64,000 bases of DNA. It comes from Dyadobacter sp. 676 (GTDB lineage Bacteria; Bacteroidota; Bacteroidia; Cytophagales; Spirosomataceae). The stretch covers positions 4,695,001 to 4,759,000 of the forward strand of contig NZ_CP159289.1 of assembly GCF_040448675.1 (NCBI RefSeq). The letters run 5' to 3'. The notes under the pieces were generated by a model that was given only the letters and a program-made list of their open reading frames with translations, ran no database searches and was not told the DNA's origin. Below are positions 1,085 to 16,961 of the stretch, piece after piece (position 1 is the stretch's first letter; the number at the start of each line of letters is the position of its first letter). The translations under genes and the position numbers were made by a program.

Positions 1085-1211
1085 TGAATGCGTAAATTTG
1101 GATATGTCGGTGTAAGGATTGGAATAAACCGATAATATATCGCCAAATCAAGGCTGTTTAAAAGTTTCTGCTCTCAAAGTCTTGCGTTTTAATTTTCAAT
1201 AAGTTTACTTT

Positions 1212-1230
1212 GTCTATCATATTTATAGAC
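1212..1230. promoter_or_regulatory. operator-like inverted repeat upstream of the Cys-rich leader ORF and susC
   Basis: GTCTAT-N7-ATAGAC is a perfect 6-bp inverted repeat, and its right arm overlaps a second palindrome, TATAGACTATA (1224-1234). It follows TTTG (1209-1212) and precedes TATATAAA (1231-1238). This would put it in the spacer of a weak -33/-7 promoter, where a repressor or an activator could act. The binding protein is unknown. That this is the promoter of the sulfatase locus is an inference from position. Confidence 0.4.
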
Positions 1231-1299
1231 TATATAAAAATGACCTGCCCGATTAACCACCAGTCAGGCGGAACATTCGTCCAAAATTCTATCGTACCT

Positions 1300-1410
1300 A
1301 TGAAAACGAAAGATGTACTTCTTATGTGGTCCTTCAGCGCCGGTAGGCCGGCCCTGGAAAGCATGGTGGTTTCCGATTGTCCCCGTCCCGCAGCGTGTTG
1401 CTGTTGTTGA
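1300..1410 (+). CDS. 36-residue peptide ending in CCCC, candidate cysteine-sensing leader peptide
   Basis: ATG at 1300 and TGA at 1408-1410. The peptide begins MKTKDVLLMWSF, continues through GRPALESMVV, and ends DCPRPAACCCC, with five of its last ten residues cysteine. The last four sense codons are TGT TGC TGT TGT. It has no signal peptide or lipobox. It lies 172 nt upstream of susC in a long leader, the place of an attenuation peptide, and the operon below encodes sulfatases. Cys-rich leader peptides upstream of sulfur genes are known in Actinobacteria, so cysteine-responsive attenuation is the leading inference. The alternatives are a cysteine-rich RiPP precursor, but no modifying enzyme is nearby, or a chance ORF. 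An in-frame upstream start near 1210 exists but would begin inside the presumed promoter. Confidence 0.55.
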   Translation: MKTKDVLLMWSFSAGRPALESMVVSDCPRPAACCCC

Positions 1411-1440
1411 CCTTCTGACAAACTCCCGAATTATTTATCA

Positions 1441-1470
1441 GATCCCGCTTATCGGCATATGAGGCGGATC
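1441..1470 (+). promoter_or_regulatory. hairpin between the Cys-rich leader ORF and susC, possible attenuator
   Basis: GATCC(c)GCTT pairs with GAGGCGGATC around a ten-base loop: nine pairs, one bulge. A pyrimidine-rich stretch with TTGTTTTA follows at about 1476-1492. It starts 30 nt after the stop of the Cys-rich ORF, so a ribosome stalled at the Cys codons could influence its folding. There is no clean T-run, so termination is not certain. The rest of 1085-1582 holds no other recognisable feature. Confidence 0.35.
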
Positions 1471-1582
1471 AGGCACTTCTTCGCATTGTTTTAGCGCTCA
1501 GGCCCGCGTCGGATTGTGCCGCGTATATGCGCGTAGGTTAGTGTTTGCATGCCTCGAGTATCCATTTTATTCACCACAAATA

Positions 1583-4500
1583 ATGATCAAACATCTAATC
1601 CGCCTGTTCTTGCTGACGGGCTTGGTATCCACAGGTTTTTACCGTGCATCGGCGCAGGACGCCATTACCGGCGTGGTAAAAGACGAGTCGGGGCAGGGGT
1701 TGCCCGGTGCTACGGTGGTTGAGAAAGGCTCTGCCAAATACGCTTTGACGGACATTGACGGGAAGTTCAGTATCCCCCCAGCGAAGGAGTTTCCATTTAC
1801 ATTGCAAATCAGCATTACCGGTTTCCAGCAGCAGGAAATCGAGATTTACGAGCAGCCTGCCGAGCCGGTCGAAGTGGTACTGAAAACCGCCAACCTGCTC
1901 GACGAGGTCGTGGTGGTAGGTTACGGTGAACAGAAACGTAAGGACATTACGGGCTCTGTGGCTTCGGTTCCCATTGAAATCAAAAGCCAGCCGGTTGCCT
2001 CGGTGGAGCGCCTCTTGCAAGGTTCCGTCGCGGGTGCGGTGGTAACGCAGACGTCCGGGCAGCCGGGCGGGGGAGTGAGCGTGCAGATACGCGGGAACAA
2101 CTCTATTACCGCGGGCAGCGATCCTTTGTATGTTATCGACGGTTTTCCCGTCAATAACGATTACGGCCTTACCGATGCCGGTGTGACCGACGGTTCGAAA
2201 ATTAACCCGCTTTCTTCCATTAATACGGCCGATATCGAGAATATCGATGTGTTGAAAGACGCTTCCGCCACAGCCATTTATGGTTCGCGCGGTGCGAACG
2301 GTGTGGTCATTATCACCACCAAAAGCGGTTCAAAAAACAAATCCTCCATTAACTACGACGCCTACTACGGCCAGCAGAAAGTACTCCGCACAATCCCCTT
2401 GCTGAATGCGGCACAATGGTGGCAACTTCGAAAAGACGCGGCGGCCAACTCCGGCAAAACCGTTTCCATTCCAACCATTGCCGGTTACTCGCTCGACACC
2501 ACCGGCGCGGGCACCGACTGGCAGGACGCCGCATTCCGCAGCGCTTCCATCCAGAGCCATAACCTTTCGATTCTATCCGGATCGGATAAGACGAAACTGG
2601 CGATTTCGGGCAACTATTTCAAACAGAACGGTATCCTGCAAAATACCGACTTCCGCCGCTTCTCGGCACGCATTAACCTGGACCACCAGTACAACGACCG
2701 CTTCCGCATTTTTACCAGCCTGAATGCGAGCAATACCAAAGCTAACGTCGCCCCGACGGCGATTGTGGGTAATCTCCTGCTGACACCCCCCCGCGCTGCC
2801 TATTTATCAGGATAATGGGACTTTCGTGGTCAACAGTCCGTTCGAATCCGCATTGCAGAACCCGATCAACTCGCTTTACAACCAGTTGAACGAGACGATC
2901 ACGAACCGTTTCCTGGGGAATGTGTCGGGAGAATACACCATTGCCGACGGTTTGAAGGCGAAAATCCTCATCGGGGCCGACGTGGTGGGTAACAAGCAGA
3001 ACCGCTATTTGCCAAGCACCACTTCCGAAGGAGCTGCTTTGAGCGGCGACGCTATCGTGGGTTCGATTTTTACCAGCAACTGGCTGAACGAGAATACGAT
3101 CAGCTACGATAAGGAGTTGAATGAAAAAAACAAAATCAATGCGGTAGCCGGTTTTACGGCGCAGGTATCCCAAAGCAAAGGGGCGATCGCGGAAGCGGCC
3201 GGCTTTGCGACCGACGCGTTCGAATACAACAACCTTGCCACCGGTATCACCAATATCGCTCCCCGTTCGCTGGCCAACAAGTGGGCGCTCGCTTCGTGGC
3301 TGGGCCGTGTGAACTACAACTTCGACGAGCGTTACCTGTTCACATTCACACTGCGGGCGGATGGTTCTTCGAAATTCGGTAGCGGCAACAAATGGGGCTA
3401 TTTCCCGTCGGCGGCGATCGGCTGGAATGTCAACGAAGAGAAATTTTTCCAGCGTTTCAAAAAAATCAGCCTGCTGAAACTGCGTTTGAGCGCCGGACAG
3501 ACGGGTAACCAGAACATTCCCGCCTACCAGTCGCTTTCGCAGCTGAGTTACTTCCGCTACAACTTCTCGAATACCACCGTTTCCGGTTTCGCCCCGAACA
3601 CCGTGCCTAACCCGAACCTCGGCTGGGAGAAGACGTTTCAGGTGGATGCCGGTGTGGATATCGGTTTGTTCAAAAACCGCATTAACATTATCGCCGATTA
3701 CTATTACAAGAAAACCACCGATTTGCTCCTGACCCGCACGGTACCAGGCACTTCCGGCTTGTCGGATTTCTACAATGGGCAAGCTTCCGTAGTTTATCAG
3801 AACATCGGTGCGGTTTCCAACCAGGGTGTCGAGTTGTATATCAATTCAAGGAATACGGAAGGTGCTTTCAAATGGAATACGATCTTCATTGTTTCCAAAA
3901 ACACCAACAAAATCCTGAGCCTCGGCGATGGTGTGGACCAGATCATCCCGGTGATATCGGCACCTTCGATCGCGAAAGTGGGCTATCCGCTGGGGTCGTT
4001 CATCGTGTACAAAACCGATGGGATTATCCAGGAAGGCGACGCGCCATTGACCCCGCAACAGAACAAAAACCCGGGCGGCCAGAAATACAAGGATATCAAC
4101 GGCGACGGCGTGATTACGCAAGCGGGCGACCGCGTGGTGGTGAAAAACCAGCCGGCGCTGACGGGCGGGATTACCAACACCTTCAATTACAAAGGCTTTG
4201 ACCTGACCGTCTTCTTCCAGGCCTCGATCGGCGGCAAGTTGTATAATGCCAACCGTGCGAACCTGGAACTGGGAACGGGTTACGTAAATGCCTCGACCGT
4301 GGTGCTCGACCGCTGGACGCCCACCCACACCGATACCGACGTAAAAGCGGCCTATCAGGACCCTGCGATCACCATTTCGGACCGGTTTATCGAAGATGCG
4401 ACCTATTACCGTCTGAAAAACCTCTCACTAGGCTACACATTTCCGAAAGAACTCGTTTCGAAACTGCGTATCGAGAACCTGCGCGTGTATGTATCCGCGC

Positions 4501-4643
4501 AAAACCCGAAAACCTGGACGAAATACACCGGTTTTGATCCCGAGGTGAGCCTGAACGGCCAGTCGCTGATCAACAAGGGCGTAGACCAGGGCGTGTATCC
4601 GAACAACAAATCCTACCAGGTGGGCCTGTCCCTTACTTTCTGA
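1583..4643 (+). pseudogene. SusC/RagA-family TonB-linked outer membrane receptor, frameshifted
   Basis: Outer-membrane transporter that imports glycan fragments together with the SusD lipoprotein. The start at 1583 gives a signal peptide ending ASAQ, a carboxypeptidase-regulatory-like domain, DEVVVVGYGEQKRKDITGSV as TonB box and plug entry, the plug (DPLYVIDGFPVN, ATAIYGSRGANGVVIITTK) and a long barrel ending VGLSLTF. The frame breaks at the seven-C run 2786-2792. As written the first part stops at 2815 and the rest continues in another frame from about 2795 to 4643. Removing one C restores TPPALPIYQDNGTFVVN and a receptor of about 1,020 residues. Either a consensus error or a recent or phase-variable frameshift. 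Product family is certain, intactness is not. Confidence 0.9.
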
Positions 4644-6273: not shown

Positions 6274-7863
6274 ATGAATAGAAAAACTTCCTTTTGGACA
6301 GGCATGATATGGGCGCTGGCGGTGGCCGCGCCGGTGCCCGTACCGGCACAACAAACGCCCGGAAAACCCAATATCGTCCTGATATTAGCCGACGATATGG
6401 GTTTTTCGGACCTGGGAAGTTTTGGCTCGGAAATCAGCACACCGAACCTCGACCGCCTGGCGAAAGAAGGCCTGCGCATTACCCAGTTTTATAATAGCGG
6501 CCGCTGCTGCCCTTCGCGCGCGGCTTTGCTCACGGGCCTGTACCCGCACCAGGCGGGCGTGGGCGACATGGTGCAGGACAAGGGTACACCTGCGTACCAG
6601 GGCTATTTGAGTAAAAACAGCGCCACGATTGTGCAATTACTCAAAACGGCGGGCTATAACACCATTGTTTCGGGCAAATGGCATGTCGGGCTGGTACCGT
6701 CGGCCTGGGCGGTGAACCGCGGGTTCGATCAGTCTTTTACTTTGCAAAACAATGGAGCCAGCTATTTCAACTCCGAGCCGCTTTACAATGACGGACGCAC
6801 CGTCACATTCCAGCTCAACGGCCGCCAGATTCAGCGGTACGACACTTCGCGCTATCTCACACAAGCCATTACCGATTTCGCGATCCAGTCTGTCGACCGC
6901 ATTAAGGATCAGTCCAATCCCTTCTTTTTGTACCTTGCCTATAATGCACCGCACTGGCCGATCCAGGCTTTGCCGGAAGACATTGCCCGCTACAAAGGGA
7001 AGTATTTACAGGGTTGGGACGCATTGCGGGAGGCCCGCTACCGGAAACTGATCTCACTCGGCATTATCCGAAAGGAGTGGAAACTTTCGCCCCGCTACGA
7101 AAAAGCGCCGGAATGGAATGCGCTGAGCGAAGCGGAAAAAGACCGGTGGGGCACCCGTATGGCCATTTATGCGGCCATGGTCGACCGGATGGACCAATGC
7201 ATCGGACAGGTGCTCGATAAACTGAAAGCCATCGGCCGCGACCGCAACACGCTCGTGATTTTCCTCTCCGACAATGGCGGCAGCGGGGATACCGTTCGCG
7301 AATGGAGTTATGTTACCCCAAAAACAGGTGAACCGGGTTCGGTGAACTCCATAGACAGCTACGACCCACCCTGGGGCAATGCGAGCAACACGCCATTCCA
7401 ACTTTTTAAAAAGAACACCCACGAAGGCGGCATCGCCTCCCCGTTCATTGCCTGGTTTCCGGGAAGGATCAGGGCCAATGCGCTGAGTATCCAGGTAAGC
7501 CACATTACCGACATAATGCCGACCATTCTCGAAACGGCAGGCGTGCATTATCCCGGTACATTCGGCAACGAAACGCTTACGCCGCTGGCAGGTACCTCGT
7601 TAACCCCATTATTCCAAAATCCGCAAGCCACGAAGCCCAGAACCATTTTCTGGGAGCACGAAGGCAGCCGCGCCGTGCGCAAGGGCGACTGGAAGCTCGT
7701 CGCGGAGATTGATCGGCCGTGGGAATTGTACGACCTGAAAGCCGACCGTAGCGAAACCAACAATCTGGCCGGCCGGTATCCGCAAAAGGTGAAAGAACTG
7801 GAAAGCGAATACCTCCAGTGGGCTGAGAAAGTAGGTGTAGTGGATTGGAATACGATCAAATAG
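6274..7863 (+). CDS. secreted arylsulfatase-type sulfatase (S1 family)
   Basis: Hydrolyses a sulfate ester, probably on a glycan fragment. The signal peptide ends about residue 25 (VPAQ). The metal-binding Asp pair is in LILADDMGFSDLG (40-41). The formylglycine site is CCPSRAALLTG, with Cys78 the residue to be oxidised. Further sulfatase signatures are GKWHVGLVPS, the LSDNGG metal site and a C-terminal RAVRKGDWKLVAE/WELYDL strand. At 529 residues it is intact, unlike the next two sulfatases. It starts 35 nt after susD. Activity needs a formylglycine-generating enzyme or anSME, neither of which is in the window. Substrate unknown. Confidence 0.93.
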   Translation: MNRKTSFWTGMIWALAVAAPVPVPAQQTPGKPNIVLILADDMGFSDLGSFGSEISTPNLDRLAKEGLRITQFYNSGRCCPSRAALLTGLYPHQAGVGDMVQDKGTPAYQGYLSKNSATIVQLLKTAGYNTIVSGKWHVGLVPSAWAVNRGFDQSFTLQNNGASYFNSEPLYNDGRTVTFQLNGRQIQRYDTSRYLTQAITDFAIQSVDRIKDQSNPFFLYLAYNAPHWPIQALPEDIARYKGKYLQGWDALREARYRKLISLGIIRKEWKLSPRYEKAPEWNALSEAEKDRWGTRMAIYAAMVDRMDQCIGQVLDKLKAIGRDRNTLVIFLSDNGGSGDTVREWSYVTPKTGEPGSVNSIDSYDPPWGNASNTPFQLFKKNTHEGGIASPFIAWFPGRIRANALSIQVSHITDIMPTILETAGVHYPGTFGNETLTPLAGTSLTPLFQNPQATKPRTIFWEHEGSRAVRKGDWKLVAEIDRPWELYDLKADRSETNNLAGRYPQKVKELESEYLQWAEKVGVVDWNTIK

Positions 7864-7898
7864 GAATTGATATTGATTTAAAATGTATTCAAAAACAG

Positions 7899-10213
7899 AT
7901 GGTTATGGGAAAGATTTGTAGTTCGTGGAATAAACTGTCGCTTGGGGCGCTGGCCGTACTGGCCGCGAGCGGCGTGAACGCGCAATATGCGCCTGCGCCC
8001 GCCTATCAGGGTAAAATCGGCAAGACGGTCGCCGAAACGCAGCAATCGTGGCCGGAGAAAAAGAAGGCGGCGAAAGGCTCTCCGAATGTCGTCTGGATTC
8101 TGCTGGACGACATCGGTTATGGTGCGATCAGCACTTTCGGCGGATTGATCAACACCCCCACGCTGGATAGCCTGGCGAACAATGGCTTGCGATATACCAA
8201 TTTTCATACGACGGCCATTTGCGCGCCCACACGTGCATCGCTGCTTACGGGGCGCAATGCGCATTCGGCACATATGGGACTTTTTCCCGAAACCGCCATC
8301 GGCACACCCGGCTACGACGCGCTCATTCCTTTTGAGAAAGGTACCATTGCCGAGATCCTGAAAGACAATGGTTACAACACATTTGCATTGGGTAAATGGC
8401 ATATTACCCCGTTGGCGGACCTGACACCCGCCGGCCCGTTCAACCGCTGGCCGACGGGCCGGGGTTTCGAGCAATTCTACGGATTCCCGTCGCGCGGCAG
8501 CATCGACCAATGGCATCCCGAGCTTTGGGAAGGCACGCACCGCGAGCCCGACCGGCAGGATGGCAAGCATTTCAACGAACTGATCGCCGACAAGGCCATC
8601 AGCTATCTGGCAAGCCAGAAATCGGGAAATCCGGACAAGCCTTTTTTCTGTACGTCGCAACCGGCGCGGGCCATGCGCCGCATCAGGTAGCGAAAAAATG
8701 GTCGGATAAATACAAAGGTAAATTCGACGCGGGCTGGGATGCTTACCGGGAGCAGGTGTTGGCGAACCAGATCAGGCTGGGTGTGGTGCCGAAAAATGCC
8801 AAACTGCCGCCGCGTAACCCCGGTGTGAAGGAATGGAGCTCGCTGGGCGCCGACGAGAAGCGGCTGTATGCGCGGTTTATGGAAACGTATGCCGGCTTTT
8901 TGGAACAAACCGATTATGAAATCGGAAGGATTATCAACCATATCCGCGAAACGGGCGAGCTGGAAAATACGATCGTAATCGTGTCGGTGGGCGACAATGG
9001 CGCGAGTAAGGAAGGGACGTTCGTAGGCACCGTAAACAACTTCGGTACCGGCATTTCGGAGGAGGAGCGTTTGAAAAAGAACATCGAGCAGATCGACCTC
9101 ATCGGCACCGAGTTCTCGAAAGTGAATTATCCCCTCGGCTGGGCCGCGGCCACCAATGTGCCGTTCCGCCACTGGAAGCAGGATGCGAACTCGGAAGGCG
9201 GCACGCATAACCCGCTCATCGTTTTTTATCCCAAAGGCATCAAAGAAAAAGGCGGGGTCCGGAACCAGTACGGTCATGTTTCCGACATTTTACCTACCAC
9301 ATTGGAACTGCTGAACATCAAGGCCCCTGCGGTTTTGAATGGCATCAAGCAGGATCCGATCGAGGGAACGAGCCTGGCATACAGCCTCAACGACGCGGGT
9401 GCCAAAAGCCGCCATACGGTTCAGTACTACGAAATCCGTGGTTCGCGCTCGATTTACAAAGACGGCTGGAAGGCCGGTACCCTGCATGTGAAAGGTCAGG
9501 ACTTTGAAAAAGACAAATGGGAGCTTTATAACCTGAATGAGGATTTCAACGAAACGAACGATCTGTCCGCATCCGATCCGGCGAAGTTAAAAGAACTGAA
9601 AGCATTGTTCGATAGCGAGGCCTCGAAATACAATGTGTACCCGCTGAAAGACGGCACCGAACCGTTTACATTGCCTACCGCCTACAACGACGTAGAGAAG
9701 GTAGTCCTGTATCCGGGCCAATCGACGATCATCGACATCGCCAGCCCGTTCGCATTGAAACGCTCGTTCTCGATCGTTGCGGATGCCGTATTGTCGGGTG
9801 CGGAAACAGAGGGAGTGCTGCTGTCGAGAGGCGGTGCAGCTGGCGGGCTGAGCTTTTTTATCCAAAATCAGAAACTGCAATTCGTGTATGCCGTTGGTGA
9901 CGGTCATAAATATGTGGTGAGCTCTTCGGCTGCAACATTGCCGGCAGGCAAAGTAGAGCTGAAAGCCAGCGTGCAATACGATCAGAATGGCGGGGGAGTG
10001 GTGAGCCTGTATGTCAACAATGCGAAAGTAGGAGAGGGCGCGCTTGCCAAAACTTCGGATGCATTGTATTTGCATGAAGGCGTAAATGTAGGCTTCGACG
10101 ACCTCACGCCGGTAGGGGACACTTACAAAGTGCCTTTTGCGTTCACAGGCAAAATTCAAAAGGTAACCATCGATCTGGCCCCGACGCAGCAGGCCGTTTT
10201 GGGTGCGAAATAA
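7899..10213 (+). pseudogene. secreted sulfatase with C-terminal LamG-like domain, frameshifted
   Basis: Start at ATG 7899 (or 7905) gives a signal peptide ending GVNAQ. Asp70/71 (LLDDIGYG) and the formylglycine motif CAPTRASLLTG with Cys108 define a sulfatase; GKWH and VGDNGAS follow. The frame breaks at the six-T run 8642-8647: as written the first part ends at 8690 with a nonsense tail, and the real continuation (FFLYVATGAGHAPHQVAKK) is in the +1 frame to 10213. One extra T restores about 770 residues. The last ~170 residues (from YPGQSTIIDIASPF) look like a concanavalin/LamG-type beta sandwich, which may hold the enzyme on polysaccharide. It starts 35 nt after the first sulfatase. Confidence 0.87.
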
Positions 10214-10255
10214 GGGTTTTGATTTGTTGCTACTTGCCTGACGGCATTCGATTTA

Positions 10256-10337
10256 ACTAAGTCGCGTAGCGACGTAACATTGGTAGGAAAGAGCCAAACC
10301 CCACGTTTTGAAAAAATCGCACAGCGATGTAACAACC
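10256..10337. repeat. REP-like intergenic element: two small hairpins with identical GTAACA tails
   Basis: GTCGC-GTA-GCGAC (10261-10273) is followed by GTAACATTGGTAG. About 40 nt further ATCGC-ACA-GCGAT (10316-10328) is followed again by GTAACA. The two half-elements share a pattern (xTCGC-N3-GCGAx-GTAACA) but differ in compensating bases, so the hairpins are conserved rather than the exact sequence. A third weak hairpin TGCC-TGAC-GGCA lies at 10237-10248. It fills the gap between the second and third sulfatase genes. I recall similar sequences as interspersed repeats in Cytophagales genomes, but cannot verify this here. Confidence 0.6.
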
Positions 10338-10342
10338 ATGCA

Positions 10343-12173
10343 ATGCAAATGCATAAACTGACCCGCAAAATCCTTTTGGCGATACTCGCAATCGCATTAC
10401 ACCCGGCCATGGCGCAGGACCGCCCGAATATCCTCTGGATAGTGAGCGAAGACAATACCATTCTGCTGGGCAGCTATGGGGATCAATTCGCGACGACGCC
10501 TAACCTGGACAGGTTCGCGAGCGAGAGCATCCGTTACAAGAATGCTTTCTCGACGGCCCCCCGTGTGTGCGCCTTCGCGTAACACGCTCATTACAGGCAT
10601 GTATCCGCCCTCGCTCGGTACCGAACATATGCGCAGCGAGTATCCGTCGCCGGCATTTGTGAAGTTTTTTCCGAAATACCTGCGGGAGGCCGGTTACTAC
10701 ACAACGAATAATGCCAAAAAGGATTACAACACGACCGACCAGACGGATGCCTGGGATGAATCCAGCGCCAGGGCAACTTATAAGAACCGCAAGTCGGGTC
10801 AGCCGTTTTTCGCGGTATTCAACTTAAATGTATCGCATGAAAGCTCGCTCCATGAGCCGCTGCCTGCATTGAAACATGATCCTGAAAAAGTGCCGTTACC
10901 GCCTTACCATCCGGTGACACCCGAGCTGAAACACGATTGGGCGCAGTATTACGATAAGCTGGAAGAAATGGACCGGCAGTTTGGAAAGCTGTGGCAGGAG
11001 TTGAAAGACGAAGGCCTGGCCGACAATACGATCGTGTTCTATTATGCCGATAACGGAGGGGTGCTCGCGCGCAGCAAACGGTTTATGTATGAATCCGGCC
11101 TGCATGTACCGCTCATCGTCCATTTGCCGCCCAAGTATGCGCATTTGGCAAAGCAGGGACAGGGTACCGTGTCGGACAGGCTGGTAACCTTCCTGGATTT
11201 CGCGCCTACTGTTTTGAGTTTGGCGGATATCAAAGTGCCCGACTACATGCAGGGAAATGCTTTTTTGGGCAAACAGCAGAAGCCGGAGCCGCAATATGCA
11301 TACGGTTTCAGGGGCAGAATGGACGAGCGGATCGATATGTCGCGGTCGGTGCGGGATAAGAAATTCCGTTATATCCGGAATTATTTGCCCAACAAAATCT
11401 ACGGCCAGTACCTCGAATACCTTTGGCGCGCTCCTTCGGTGAAATCGTGGGAGAACCTTTATAAGGCCGGTAAGCTGAATGCGGTGCAATCGAAATTCTG
11501 GGAAGAAAAACCTGCCGAGGAGCTTTTCGACGTCGATGCAGACCCGCATAACATTCGCAACCTCGCCGGCGATCCGAAATACAAAAAGGACCTGGAAAGA
11601 TTGCGCAAAGCCAATGAGGAGTGGATCGGCAGCTATAAGGATGTCGGTTTTATTCCAGAGGCGATCATTTACGAAATCGCCGGAACGACGCCTTTATATG
11701 ATTATGCAAGAAGTGGCAAATACAATCTGGAGAAGATCGCGGCCACGGCGGACCTTGCTTCGTCGCGCAATGCGGCTAACGCGCGGGCGCTCATCCGGGC
11801 GTTGAGCGATGCGGACCCGTCGGTGCGGTATTGGAGTGCTACCGGTCTCACGGTTTTGAAAGCGGCCTCCGGCAAAGTGGCATTGCAAAACGCATTGAAG
11901 GATCCCGAACCGGCCGTGCGCATCGCGGCAGCCGAAGCGCTGTATGTGACCGGCGCCGACAAACCCGAAGCCATAGCGGTATTGACAGACGCATTGAAGA
12001 GCGATAACCCATACGTTCGTTTGCAAGCGCTCAATGTCCTGGATTTGACCGGAAAAGATGCGGCACCGGCCATTCCGGCGGCTGAAAAGATTTCGGCGCA
12101 AAAGGCGGAAATGTTTGATTACGACATCCGCGCAGCCAAAGTGCTGGTGAACAATTTCAGGAGTTCAAAATAA
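10343..12173 (+). pseudogene. heparan-N-sulfatase-like sulfatase with HEAT-repeat tail, frameshifted
   Basis: Signal peptide MQMHKLTRKILL...AMAQ, then RPNILWIVSEDNTILLGSYGD, where the usual Asp-Asp is EDN, as in N-sulfoglucosamine sulfohydrolase-like enzymes. The formylglycine motif is CAPSRNTLITG (Cys about 75), YADNG is the second metal site, and ELFDVDADPHNIRNLA is typical of this subfamily. The C-terminal ~150 residues are HEAT/PBS-lyase-like repeats (DPSVRYWSATGL, EPAVRIAAAEAL, NPYVRLQALNVL). The frame breaks in the six-C run 10557-10562: five Cs give NAFSTAPVCAPSR without a break, whereas as written the first frame stops at 10582, just before the catalytic motif. ATG 10349 is an alternative start. 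About 609 residues when repaired. Confidence 0.88.
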
Positions 12174-12230: not shown

Positions 12231-12953
12231 ATGAAAACTTTCAGACCATTGTTCGCATGGGTATGGCTGCTTGCCGCTCACACCGTCCTGTTCGCCCAAA
12301 CCGCTCCCAGGCAGGACCTTGTTTCCTTCGAAGAATTTGAAGCGCGCCTGGCCAGGGCCGGCAAAAATGCGCAGATCCTCGACGCCCGTCTGCCGGAGGA
12401 ATACGCCCAAAACCACCTTGAGGGTGCGGTGAGTTTCAGCGTAGCCAATGAGACGGATTTTGCCAAAGCCATTGCCAAACTCGATAAAAGCAAGCCGACT
12501 TTCATTTATTCCATTGCTAACGGCCGCAGCGGCAAACTTGCCGGCGAGCTCCGCAATAATGGTTTTAAAGACGTAACCGAATTGCCGGGTGGTTTGAGTA
12601 AATGGATCGGGCTGGGGAAACCCGTTGTTTCCACCGTCGGCCCGGGCCTCTCGCTGACCGACTACCAGGCTTCCCTGAAATCGGACAAGCTGGTGCTCGT
12701 TGACTTCGGGTCGCGCTATTGCGGCTCCTGCAAAAAGCTGGCCCCAATCGTGGATTCGATCAAGCACGAGCAGGCCAATTCGGTGAAAGTGATCAATATC
12801 GAAGCCTATGAAAACAAGGCACTAACCAAAGAGCTGGGCGTAACCGCATTGCCTACACTGATTCTTTACCGCGGAAGCCAGGTGGTTTGGAAGAAAACCG
12901 GGGTAACGCCGAAAGGCGAGATTGAAAGGGTACTGGCAGAGGCGAATTTGTGA
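12231..12953 (+). CDS. secreted rhodanese-like/thioredoxin fusion with inactive rhodanese site
   Basis: The signal peptide ends about residue 23 (LFAQ). Residues ~30-135 are a rhodanese fold (ILDARLPEEYAQNHLEGAVSF ... ELPGGLSKWIGLGKPV). At the active loop the sequence is IYSIANGRSGKLA: Ser94 stands where the persulfide-forming Cys should be. Residues ~140-240 are a thioredoxin fold with CGSC at 164-167 and the cis-Pro stretch ALPTLILYR. The Trx half should be redox-active in the periplasm; the rhodanese half is probably a binding module. It is 57 nt after the third sulfatase in the same direction, so it likely belongs to the sulfatase operon. A role in sulfur handling or sulfatase cysteine redox is an inference. 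Confidence 0.85.
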   Translation: MKTFRPLFAWVWLLAAHTVLFAQTAPRQDLVSFEEFEARLARAGKNAQILDARLPEEYAQNHLEGAVSFSVANETDFAKAIAKLDKSKPTFIYSIANGRSGKLAGELRNNGFKDVTELPGGLSKWIGLGKPVVSTVGPGLSLTDYQASLKSDKLVLVDFGSRYCGSCKKLAPIVDSIKHEQANSVKVINIEAYENKALTKELGVTALPTLILYRGSQVVWKKTGVTPKGEIERVLAEANL

Positions 12954-15631: not shown

Positions 15632-16961
15632 CTAAACCTGATTTCTTTTCGTCATTTTGAAGAAACGTGTCATCAGGAAAATCGAAGCCATCGTCAGGCC
15701 CAAGATCAGCCCCAGCCACATGCCCGACGCGCCCATGCCGAAATGGAACGCCAGTGTGTAACCAACCGGAATACCGATCACCCAATAGGCAATTCCGATC
15801 AGGATCGTGGGTGTTTTTACGTCTTTAATACCCCTTAACAACCCGGCCCCGATGGCTTGCGTGCTGTCTGAAATCTGAAAAACGGCGGCGAAAAGGAGGA
15901 GTAATGCGGCCAAGCCGACTACCTCGGCATTGTCGTTGAATGCAATCGGCAGGTGGTTGCGTAACACGCCGAATGTGATCGCGCAGAACGTTCCGTAGAT
16001 AAGAGCGGTCACGAGCGTGCTTTTGCCAATTGCAACGATTTTCGCCCAATCGCTTCGGCCGAGCGCGTTGCTCACGCGTATGGAGCCAGCCTGTGCGAGG
16101 CCCATCGATACCATAAATGTGAAGGAGGCGCTGCTCAGCGCGATCTGGTGGGCCGCCTGCGCCACCGCCCCCAAAGTCCCGATAATAATGCCCGACACCG
16201 CGAAAGCGCCCGCTTCCATGCCGATCTGCAAGCTGCTCGGTACGCCGATATGCAGCAGCTCGCGCCAGGTTTGCCATTTGAAATACCATTGGCTGCGGCT
16301 TACGGCTATATATTTTGCAAAGGTTCGGTGCCTTAAAATCACGAACAGCAAGGCGAGGAACATCATGCTGCGGGTAATGAGCGTCGCCCAGCCCGCGCCT
16401 TCGAGTTCGAGGCGCGGAAAGCCCCAGTTGCCGTAAATGAGCAGCCAGTTGAGCAGAATGTTCACCGGCATACCCGCCAGTGAGAATATCATAGCCGTAC
16501 GCGTGTGTTCCAGGCCGTCGGCGAATTGCTTCCAGGGTCATAAACAGCAGCATCGGGATAATGGAAAGGCCCATCAGCCTCATAAACGGAATGGCCAGTT
16601 CCACCACTTCCGGGTCCTGGCCGAGATTGTGCAGGTAATCTTTTCCAAAAAGCAATGTGATGGAAATCGCCAGCGCCGTAAGCGTGCAAAGACAAAAGCC
16701 ATTGAACAGGTAATGCGAAACCTGCTGCGCGTCGCGGCGGCCATTGGCGAGGGATACCATTTGGGAAACCGAGATGGTCATGCCGATACCGATCACGAAC
16801 GGAATGTTCATGGCGTTGATCACCAGGGCCGCGGCGGCGAGCTGTTTGTAGCTGATAGCGCCCACCATGGCGCTGTCGATGAGGTGGAGGGCCATTTGGG
16901 CCAGTTCTCCGATGATAATTGGGAACGCAAGTTTTAAAGTTTGTGATGCTTCGTTCTTCAT
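15632..16961 (-). pseudogene. MATE-family multidrug/Na+ antiporter, frameshifted
   Basis: The N-terminal half (MKNEASQTLKLAFPIIIGELAQMALHLIDSAMVGAISYKQLAAAALV) and the C-terminal half (DGLEHTRTAMIFSLAGMPVNILLNWLLIYGNWGFP ... MTKRNQV) are two parts of one 12-helix MATE exporter. The first frame ends its sense at GAAGCAATTCGC, near 16525, and runs on as nonsense to 15825; the second is open from about 16515. MATE proteins here usually read LEAIRQFADGLEHTR, so roughly eight bases seem lost, possibly between short TTCGCC repeats. Unlike the other five breaks in the window, this one is not at a homopolymer, so it could be a real lesion. Total about 440 residues if repaired. Confidence 0.85.

Follow-up and report, generated by a model that had tools for sequence, protein, structure and literature searches.

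The window, by which we mean the whole stretch of 64,000 nucleotides of Dyadobacter sp. 676 DNA that was analysed, contains an operon of SusCD, sulfatase and rhodanese-thioredoxin genes and, in the leader of this operon, a short ORF ending in a run of Cys codons. The features of the locus, in window coordinates, were as follows.

1182..1212, + strand: predicted Bacteroidota-type promoter with TTG at 1182-1184 and a -7-like TTTACTTTG at 1204-1212, nearly invariant in 13 leaders
1212..1230, no strand assigned: 19-bp operator-like palindrome GTCTATCATATTTATAGAC, overlapping the -7 box, identical in 12 of 13 orthologous leaders
1257..1261, + strand: CCACC element ahead of the ORF; found 8-34 nt downstream of the operator at 83 of the 138 sites
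1300..1410, + strand: leader ORF, 36 codons plus TGA, ending Cys-Cys-Cys-Cys-stop; supported by orthologues in 13 of 48 Dyadobacter genomes and by control tests
1365..1369, + strand: GGTGG within the ORF (Met-Val-Val codons), complementary to 1257-1261; compared in 46 leaders of classes A-C
1396..1407, + strand: four Cys codons, TGT 1396-1398, TGC 1399-1401, TGT 1402-1404 and TGT 1405-1407, the proposed stall site, read from the sequence
1441..1470, + strand: hairpin 3' of the ORF, without a U-run, longer in relatives and partly deleted here; 11 sequences including the window
1521..1541, + strand: conserved GCGTATATGC...GGTTAG block, about 50 nt 5' of susC, from the class A alignment
1583..4643, + strand: susC, split by a frameshift (1583-2815 / 2826-4643), both halves matching TIGR04056
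4670..6238, + strand: susD (PF07980, 1e-41)
6274..12173, + strand: three sulfatase genes (6274-7863; 7899-8690/8396-10213; 10340-10582/10476-12173), PF00884, the last two frame-shifted
12231..12953, + strand: rhodanese-thioredoxin protein gene at the operon end (PF00581, PF00085)

The leader ORF encodes the peptide MKTKDVLLMWSFSAGRPALESMVVSDCPRPAACCCC. The initial annotation had described a 36-codon ORF at 1300-1410 ending in TGT TGC TGT TGT TGA, with susC, susD and three sulfatase genes beyond it, and both descriptions were borne out, the latter by Pfam and NCBIfam matches. Two alternative in-frame starts lie 5' of the leader ATG, TTG 1210 (66 aa) and ATG 1240 (56 aa); the start conserved among relatives is ATG 1300. 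The window has 580 ORFs that start with ATG and encode 15-75 aa (counting both strands and one ORF per stop), and only the leader ORF has at least three Cys among its last six residues. No NCBIfam or Pfam family matched the leader ORF, and no Rfam family matched at gathering scores anywhere in the window.

The leader ORF was intact despite its frame-shifted neighbours, among which the third sulfatase gene has an 80-aa first piece scoring just below the PF00884 cut-off. In relatives susC was one open frame (12 of 12) and the sulfatase genes were open wherever the DNA covered them, six of these loci stopping within the third sulfatase gene; we therefore concluded that the window sequence holds indel errors or decay. 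A MATE transporter gene at 15632-16961 of the window was also frame-shifted.

A first search of 59 genomes yielded relatives within the same genus. With profile A1, made from seven sequences, 13 confident leaders were detected in 48 Dyadobacter genomes, and the 13-row profile A2, searched against 222 genomes of the family, returned the same 13 at E<1e-3, all of them from Dyadobacter. The next-best A2 match in the 222 genomes (E 0.004) had a stop inside and none else fell below 1e-3. All 13 leaders preceded susC-susD and two or three sulfatase genes, and the promoter, the palindrome, the CCACC block and ATCGTACCTATG were nearly invariant across them. The middle of the peptide varied in sequence and in length (33-53 codons), the ATG and the Cys codons staying in one frame, and an N-terminal MKAKDVLL-like stretch was conserved in the class A leaders. 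Many orthologous PULs were without a class A leader. The initial annotation had made its proposal depend on a short ORF with terminal Cys codons in relatives; such an ORF was kept in 13 of the 48 Dyadobacter genomes, with the Cys codons as its most persistent feature. We concluded that the leader ORF is real and conserved.

Among 18 diverged SusC orthologues of the same genus (75-86% identity), five had a leader that kept the plan but not the sequence, for example MKTNLLLSSQIQSANSVVSNFFQSASYCCCQRC and MKTDFLLLSQKTYYFGMVSPLNLTQPQCCQACISC, and in G016 the intergenic region was without a leader. At the remaining diverged loci susC lay behind another gene, read as a fatty-acid-hydroxylase gene (the copy at L174 matched PF04116), and several such loci had the operator, sometimes together with a Cys leader, upstream of the hydroxylase gene. 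For SusC homologues from other genera (n=15, 53-77% identity), seven had a Cys-run ORF within about 3 kb upstream, by a criterion laxer than that applied to the 138 sites below, and eight had no Cys ORF in that distance; the same test was positive for 1 of the 15 reverse strands and for a mean of 0.3, with a maximum of 2, in 20 shuffles. The positives were G162, G155, G157, G156 and G154, which belong to one genus (5 of 5 sampled), G174 and G197. Five of the other-genus Cys ORFs lay about 360-610 nt before susC. The one in G197 lay about 180 nt before susC and had several possible starts, the SusC there (53% identity) being probably a paralogue, and in G174 the link between leader and susC is weak because they are about 2.7 kb apart. 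One further Cys-run ORF was found in G123, at an operator.

The region 1182-1212, which we predict from the consensus to be a Bacteroidota-type promoter, is followed by the palindrome with the arms GTCTAT (1212-1217) and ATAGAC (1225-1230); in the 13th orthologous leader (G034) the palindrome had one changed base. When the palindrome was joined to the -7 box, the pattern CTTTGTCTAYN7RTAGAY gave 148 sites in 45 of the 48 Dyadobacter genomes, against 3 matches for the backward control in the same 48 genomes. The pattern was also found in other genera of the family in low numbers, 59 of the 222 family genomes having it overall. A stricter operator pattern was found in 1 of 296 genomes of the phylum, the window's own, in a sample that held two other family members. 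Similar operator sites in the window's genome precede sulfatase genes and a class-V aminotransferase gene that itself follows a SAM riboswitch; a mismatched site lies near an O-acetylhomoserine sulfhydrylase-like gene; rhodanese-thioredoxin-like genes follow the operator at seven sites elsewhere, both of these gene names being readings of the sequence. The operator is directly followed by a SAM riboswitch (RF00162) at L112:6380-6473, and the next gene is class-V aminotransferase/cysteine-desulfurase-like. The motif GTCTAY-N7-RTAGAY, which adjoins the -7 box, appears to be a regulon-wide, operator-like promoter element in Dyadobacter, and from the site and its genes we infer that the promoter belongs to a sulfur-linked regulon under this predicted operator.

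The DNA downstream of 80 listed operator sites and of the earlier loci was then combined into 138 sites, each with at least 300 nt downstream and distinct by 120 nt, which cover a large part, not all, of the operator sites. An ORF with at least two Cys in the last six codons was found at 55 of the 138 sites, and with at least three Cys at 45. The reverse-complement control of the same sites gave 8 and 1, respectively, and 20 dinucleotide shuffles gave means of 4.3 and 0.3. No other residue rose above the shuffle maximum at the threshold of at least three; His at the threshold of at least two was slightly above the shuffles (9 vs a maximum of 7). In a frame test that ignored how ORFs end, the first ATG at 40-80 nt was taken together with the first (TGY)3 run after it; the two shared an open frame at 28 sites and did not at 2, with 65 sites having no run and 43 no ATG at that distance; the background for this test, from the window outside the leader, was 2 of 13 in frame. 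The counts of 28 and 45 are not independent events, because the leaders include orthologues. The inverted repeat listed in the initial annotation is present at 1212-1230; it is an operator-like element and not an attenuator arm, because 83 of the 138 examined sites share the repeat without an ORF that passes the Cys criterion. Sorted by the first gene behind the operator, the Cys leaders were distributed as follows.

Fatty-acid hydroxylase first: Cys leader at 17 of 24 sites
Binding protein first: 18 of 20
susC first: 18 of 20 (13 of 15, and 5 of 5 in a separate cluster that arose from a wrong-frame ORF)
Sulfatase first: 0 of 22
Small gene of no assigned function first: 0 of 14
Aminotransferase-type groups: 0 of 13 and 0 of 11
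Rhodanese-thioredoxin first: 0 of 7
Five lone sites: two with a Cys ORF
Two sites: no gene found

The name binding protein is weak, as it rests on a PF12849 match that, at E 0.004, does not reach the Pfam cut-off. The class tests took 50 of the 55 Cys leaders, namely those assigned to classes A-D, and in these the operator was followed by the assigned ATG at a distance of 45-73 nt. By eye, no relationship is apparent between leaders of different promoter groups; common to them are the start position, the Cys run and, in classes A-C, an MVV/MVG-like block. Exact GGTGG occupied one ORF phase in all 41 leaders having it, and the spacing from CCACC to the ATG occurred in all three phases. Eight class-B-type sites failed the Cys criterion: in five of them 2-4 Cys codons remain at a distance of 5-10 residues from the end, two have a single Cys at the position of the run, and L169 has no recognisable run; the Cys run can thus be displaced or lost. 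The window's genome has two more leaders, L313 of the binding-protein class and L401 of the hydroxylase class, the latter with a diverged operator. At about 1570 of L101 the 5' end of the binding-protein gene resembles a class C leader (MKSMDVYSSQ...RVV) without the Cys run, and this class-C-like stretch is fused in frame to a signal peptide.

The leader contains several other conserved elements. The core columns of CCACC and GGTGG were 93-100% complementary in the 46 leaders of classes A-C and nearly invariant. The flanks of this candidate pairing beat a shuffle over all leaders (p 0.003) and did not beat a shuffle within classes (p 0.10), and with the invariant core this leaves the pairing unproven. 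CCACC and GGTGG co-occur at 25 sites failing the Cys criterion, seven of which are class B leaders keeping at least one Cys codon, and the two may therefore be a separate element. Of the 17 class A leaders aligned, 16 have CGTATRT in the block before susC and one has CGTATAG. A block of the GCGTATATGC type before susC persisted even in diverged leaders.

The hairpin that the initial annotation placed at 1441-1470 was confirmed and is conserved in 11 sequences, with 11 pairs of which one is changed on both sides; it is without a U-run and not terminator-like. No intrinsic terminator was found in the window leader, the fold of which was not unusually stable (z -0.65), and terminator-like hairpins were found in 2 of 50 leaders of classes A-D; among these leaders no alternative terminator/antiterminator pair was found. 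A pairing of the Cys-codon segment with a downstream CAGGAAC that visual inspection suggested for some class A leaders was broken in others and was rejected. A count of TGYTGYTGYTGYTRA was a weak test, many of its matches being repeats, and no figure was taken from it. In the segment after the ORF, C outnumbered G in classes C (27% vs 18%) and A (26% vs 21%) and equalled it in class B (21% each); the 5' UTRs show the same C excess, which is compatible with Rho loading and no evidence for it. Consensus folds of the post-ORF segments revealed no strong shared structure in classes A and C (-13.2 and 0.0), and an energy of -52.9 in class B.

The class B fold energy led to R1, a structured RNA some 115 nt long, invariant in its TTTTCGGTGGTTG core, that lies downstream of the operator before sulfatase genes and, in class B, between the Cys ORF and the gene. 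An alignment of 31 copies, selected by the TTTTCGGTGGTTG core, gave a model of 115 positions in which 15 of 26 predicted pairs had changes on both sides. At E 0.001 the model detected R1 in 44 of the 48 Dyadobacter genomes and in eight genomes of other genera within the 222-genome family sample, and in the phylum sample in 1 of 296 genomes, the window's own. No Rfam family reached its cut-off on the R1-bearing loci; below threshold, rliB overlapped at L355 with 25 bits (cut-off 40, E 0.16). Two copies lie in the window's genome, before sulfatase or fatty-acid-hydroxylase genes.

L111:4742-4901, - strand (C1:2313760-2313874 in the window's genome): R1 copy, from the covariation model
L401 (C1:2307491-2307602): R1 copy

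R1 looks like a riboswitch candidate.

We consider it probable, with good though not full confidence, that the leader peptide senses Cys-tRNA and controls organosulfur uptake. This reading is supported by the conservation, the frame, the Cys specificity and the site shared across promoters. Transcription would start from the operator-controlled promoter of the sulfur-linked regulon and a ribosome would translate the leader ORF. When charged tRNA-Cys is scarce, this ribosome would slow or stop at the C-terminal Cys codons, at or near the stop codon, and the stall would alter completion or translation of the susC-susD-sulfatase mRNA. Cysteine shortage would in this way most likely lead to more scavenging of organosulfur. 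This device would also stand before two other promoter groups, an operon led by the fatty-acid-hydroxylase gene and an operon led by a product with a weak resemblance to periplasmic binding proteins. Translation of the leader, ribosome stalling and the direction of the response are what we infer from comparing sequences. Output by Rho-dependent termination or translational control appears more likely than intrinsic termination. Of the Cys-sensing attenuator proposed by the initial annotation, the conserved Cys-ending leader tied to SusCD/sulfatase operons remains; a part for the repeat as an attenuator arm or for the hairpin as a terminator is not supported. More tentatively, and with somewhat less than even confidence, we suggest that Dyadobacter and its relatives have a three-layer sulfur switch on outer-membrane scavenging operons, made up of the operator, the Cys-tRNA-sensing leader and, in one class, the metabolite-sensing RNA R1, which would stand in tandem with the leader on a single transcript. 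Under this same joint suggestion the leader peptide would be constrained in little but its Cys run.

Alternatively, the Cys run could be an RNA element, its UGUUGY repeats serving as a binding site for a protein or Rho or as a pairing partner, with the coding incidental. The end of the leader is U/G-rich, and the neighbouring CCACC and GGTGG stand together at the 25 sites that fail the Cys criterion. We nevertheless regard this explanation as unlikely, since 28 sites have the run in an open Cys frame against 2 that do not, TGT and TGC interchange within it, and it is interrupted by TCC, CCC, CGC and CAG; moreover, the last residue is Cys in 40 of the 55 leaders, and Cys occurs among the last three residues in 52 of 55.

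The initial annotation had considered a RiPP precursor as the main rival. That the peptide acts in trans, either as such a precursor or as a metal/thiol-binding small protein, is now disfavoured and seems to us very improbable: no maturation gene was recognised at the 13 loci when the first 70 residues of the large ORFs were inspected (family scans covered the window genes and a few others, the remaining loci being judged by inspection), NCBIfam and Pfam gave no match, and the leaders of the promoter groups look unrelated by eye beyond their Cys ends and the MVV/MVG-like motif. In favour of a peptide acting in trans are the Cys-rich C-terminus and the MKAKDVLL-like N-terminal stretch kept in class A. 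A chance ORF inside a conserved untranslated leader could be accommodated by the long 5' leader with its several conserved non-coding blocks; the uniqueness of the ORF among the 580 of the window, the 45 sites against 0.3 in shuffles and the frame maintained through length changes make it, in our view, extremely improbable.

Full-text searches of open-access papers gave no report of a Cys leader in Bacteroidota, in agreement with the initial annotation, to which no described case tied to a SusCD/sulfatase locus of this phylum was known. Leader-peptide candidates have been presented in transcriptome papers for Flavobacterium psychrophilum (PMC9723704) and B. thetaiotaomicron (PMC7366714), and the text passages on these candidates name no Cys leader, the lists being placed in the supplements.

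If the Cys-tRNA-sensing reading is true, Bacteroidota would possess regulon-wide Cys-codon leaders that act on SusCD/sulfatase nutrient uptake and not on amino-acid biosynthesis, and a polysaccharide-style locus would be tied to the need for sulfur and not for carbon. The regulon offers a natural test set, with three promoter groups having the leader and others lacking it under one operator.

The classical trp, his and leu attenuators carry in their leader ORF a run of codons for the limiting amino acid. The Dyadobacter leader resembles them in having a codon run for the amino acid that would be sensed; it differs in that no terminator/antiterminator pair was found and in that the genes take up a nutrient instead of synthesising an amino acid.

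Leaders with Cys runs have been described in mycobacteria and other Actinobacteria (candidates in PMC1262725, 2005), and polycysteine leaderless short ORFs are reported to be attenuators in mycobacteria (Canestrari 2020). As in the account of the former (PMC1262725), the Dyadobacter leaders carry their Cys run close to the stop codon, lack an obvious terminator and lie upstream of sulfur genes. They belong to another phylum and the peptides have no evident similarity, by inspection without alignment. The Dyadobacter ATG lies mostly 45-73 nt past the operator-like site. Further differences are the targets, which are SusCD/sulfatase uptake operons, the shared operator and, in class B, the additional structured RNA. 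In Rhodobacterales the uORFC-8-2 motif before cysS has been read as a Cys-tRNA sensor with a tandem-Cys uORF (PMC8632094), and the Dyadobacter leader is likewise a conserved uORF with tandem Cys codons. According to the description of that motif (PMC8632094), uORFC-8-2 has a terminal U-run that would fit an intrinsic terminator, and its Cys codons are usually at positions 14-15, whereas the Dyadobacter leader is without a terminator and carries its run at the end of the ORF.
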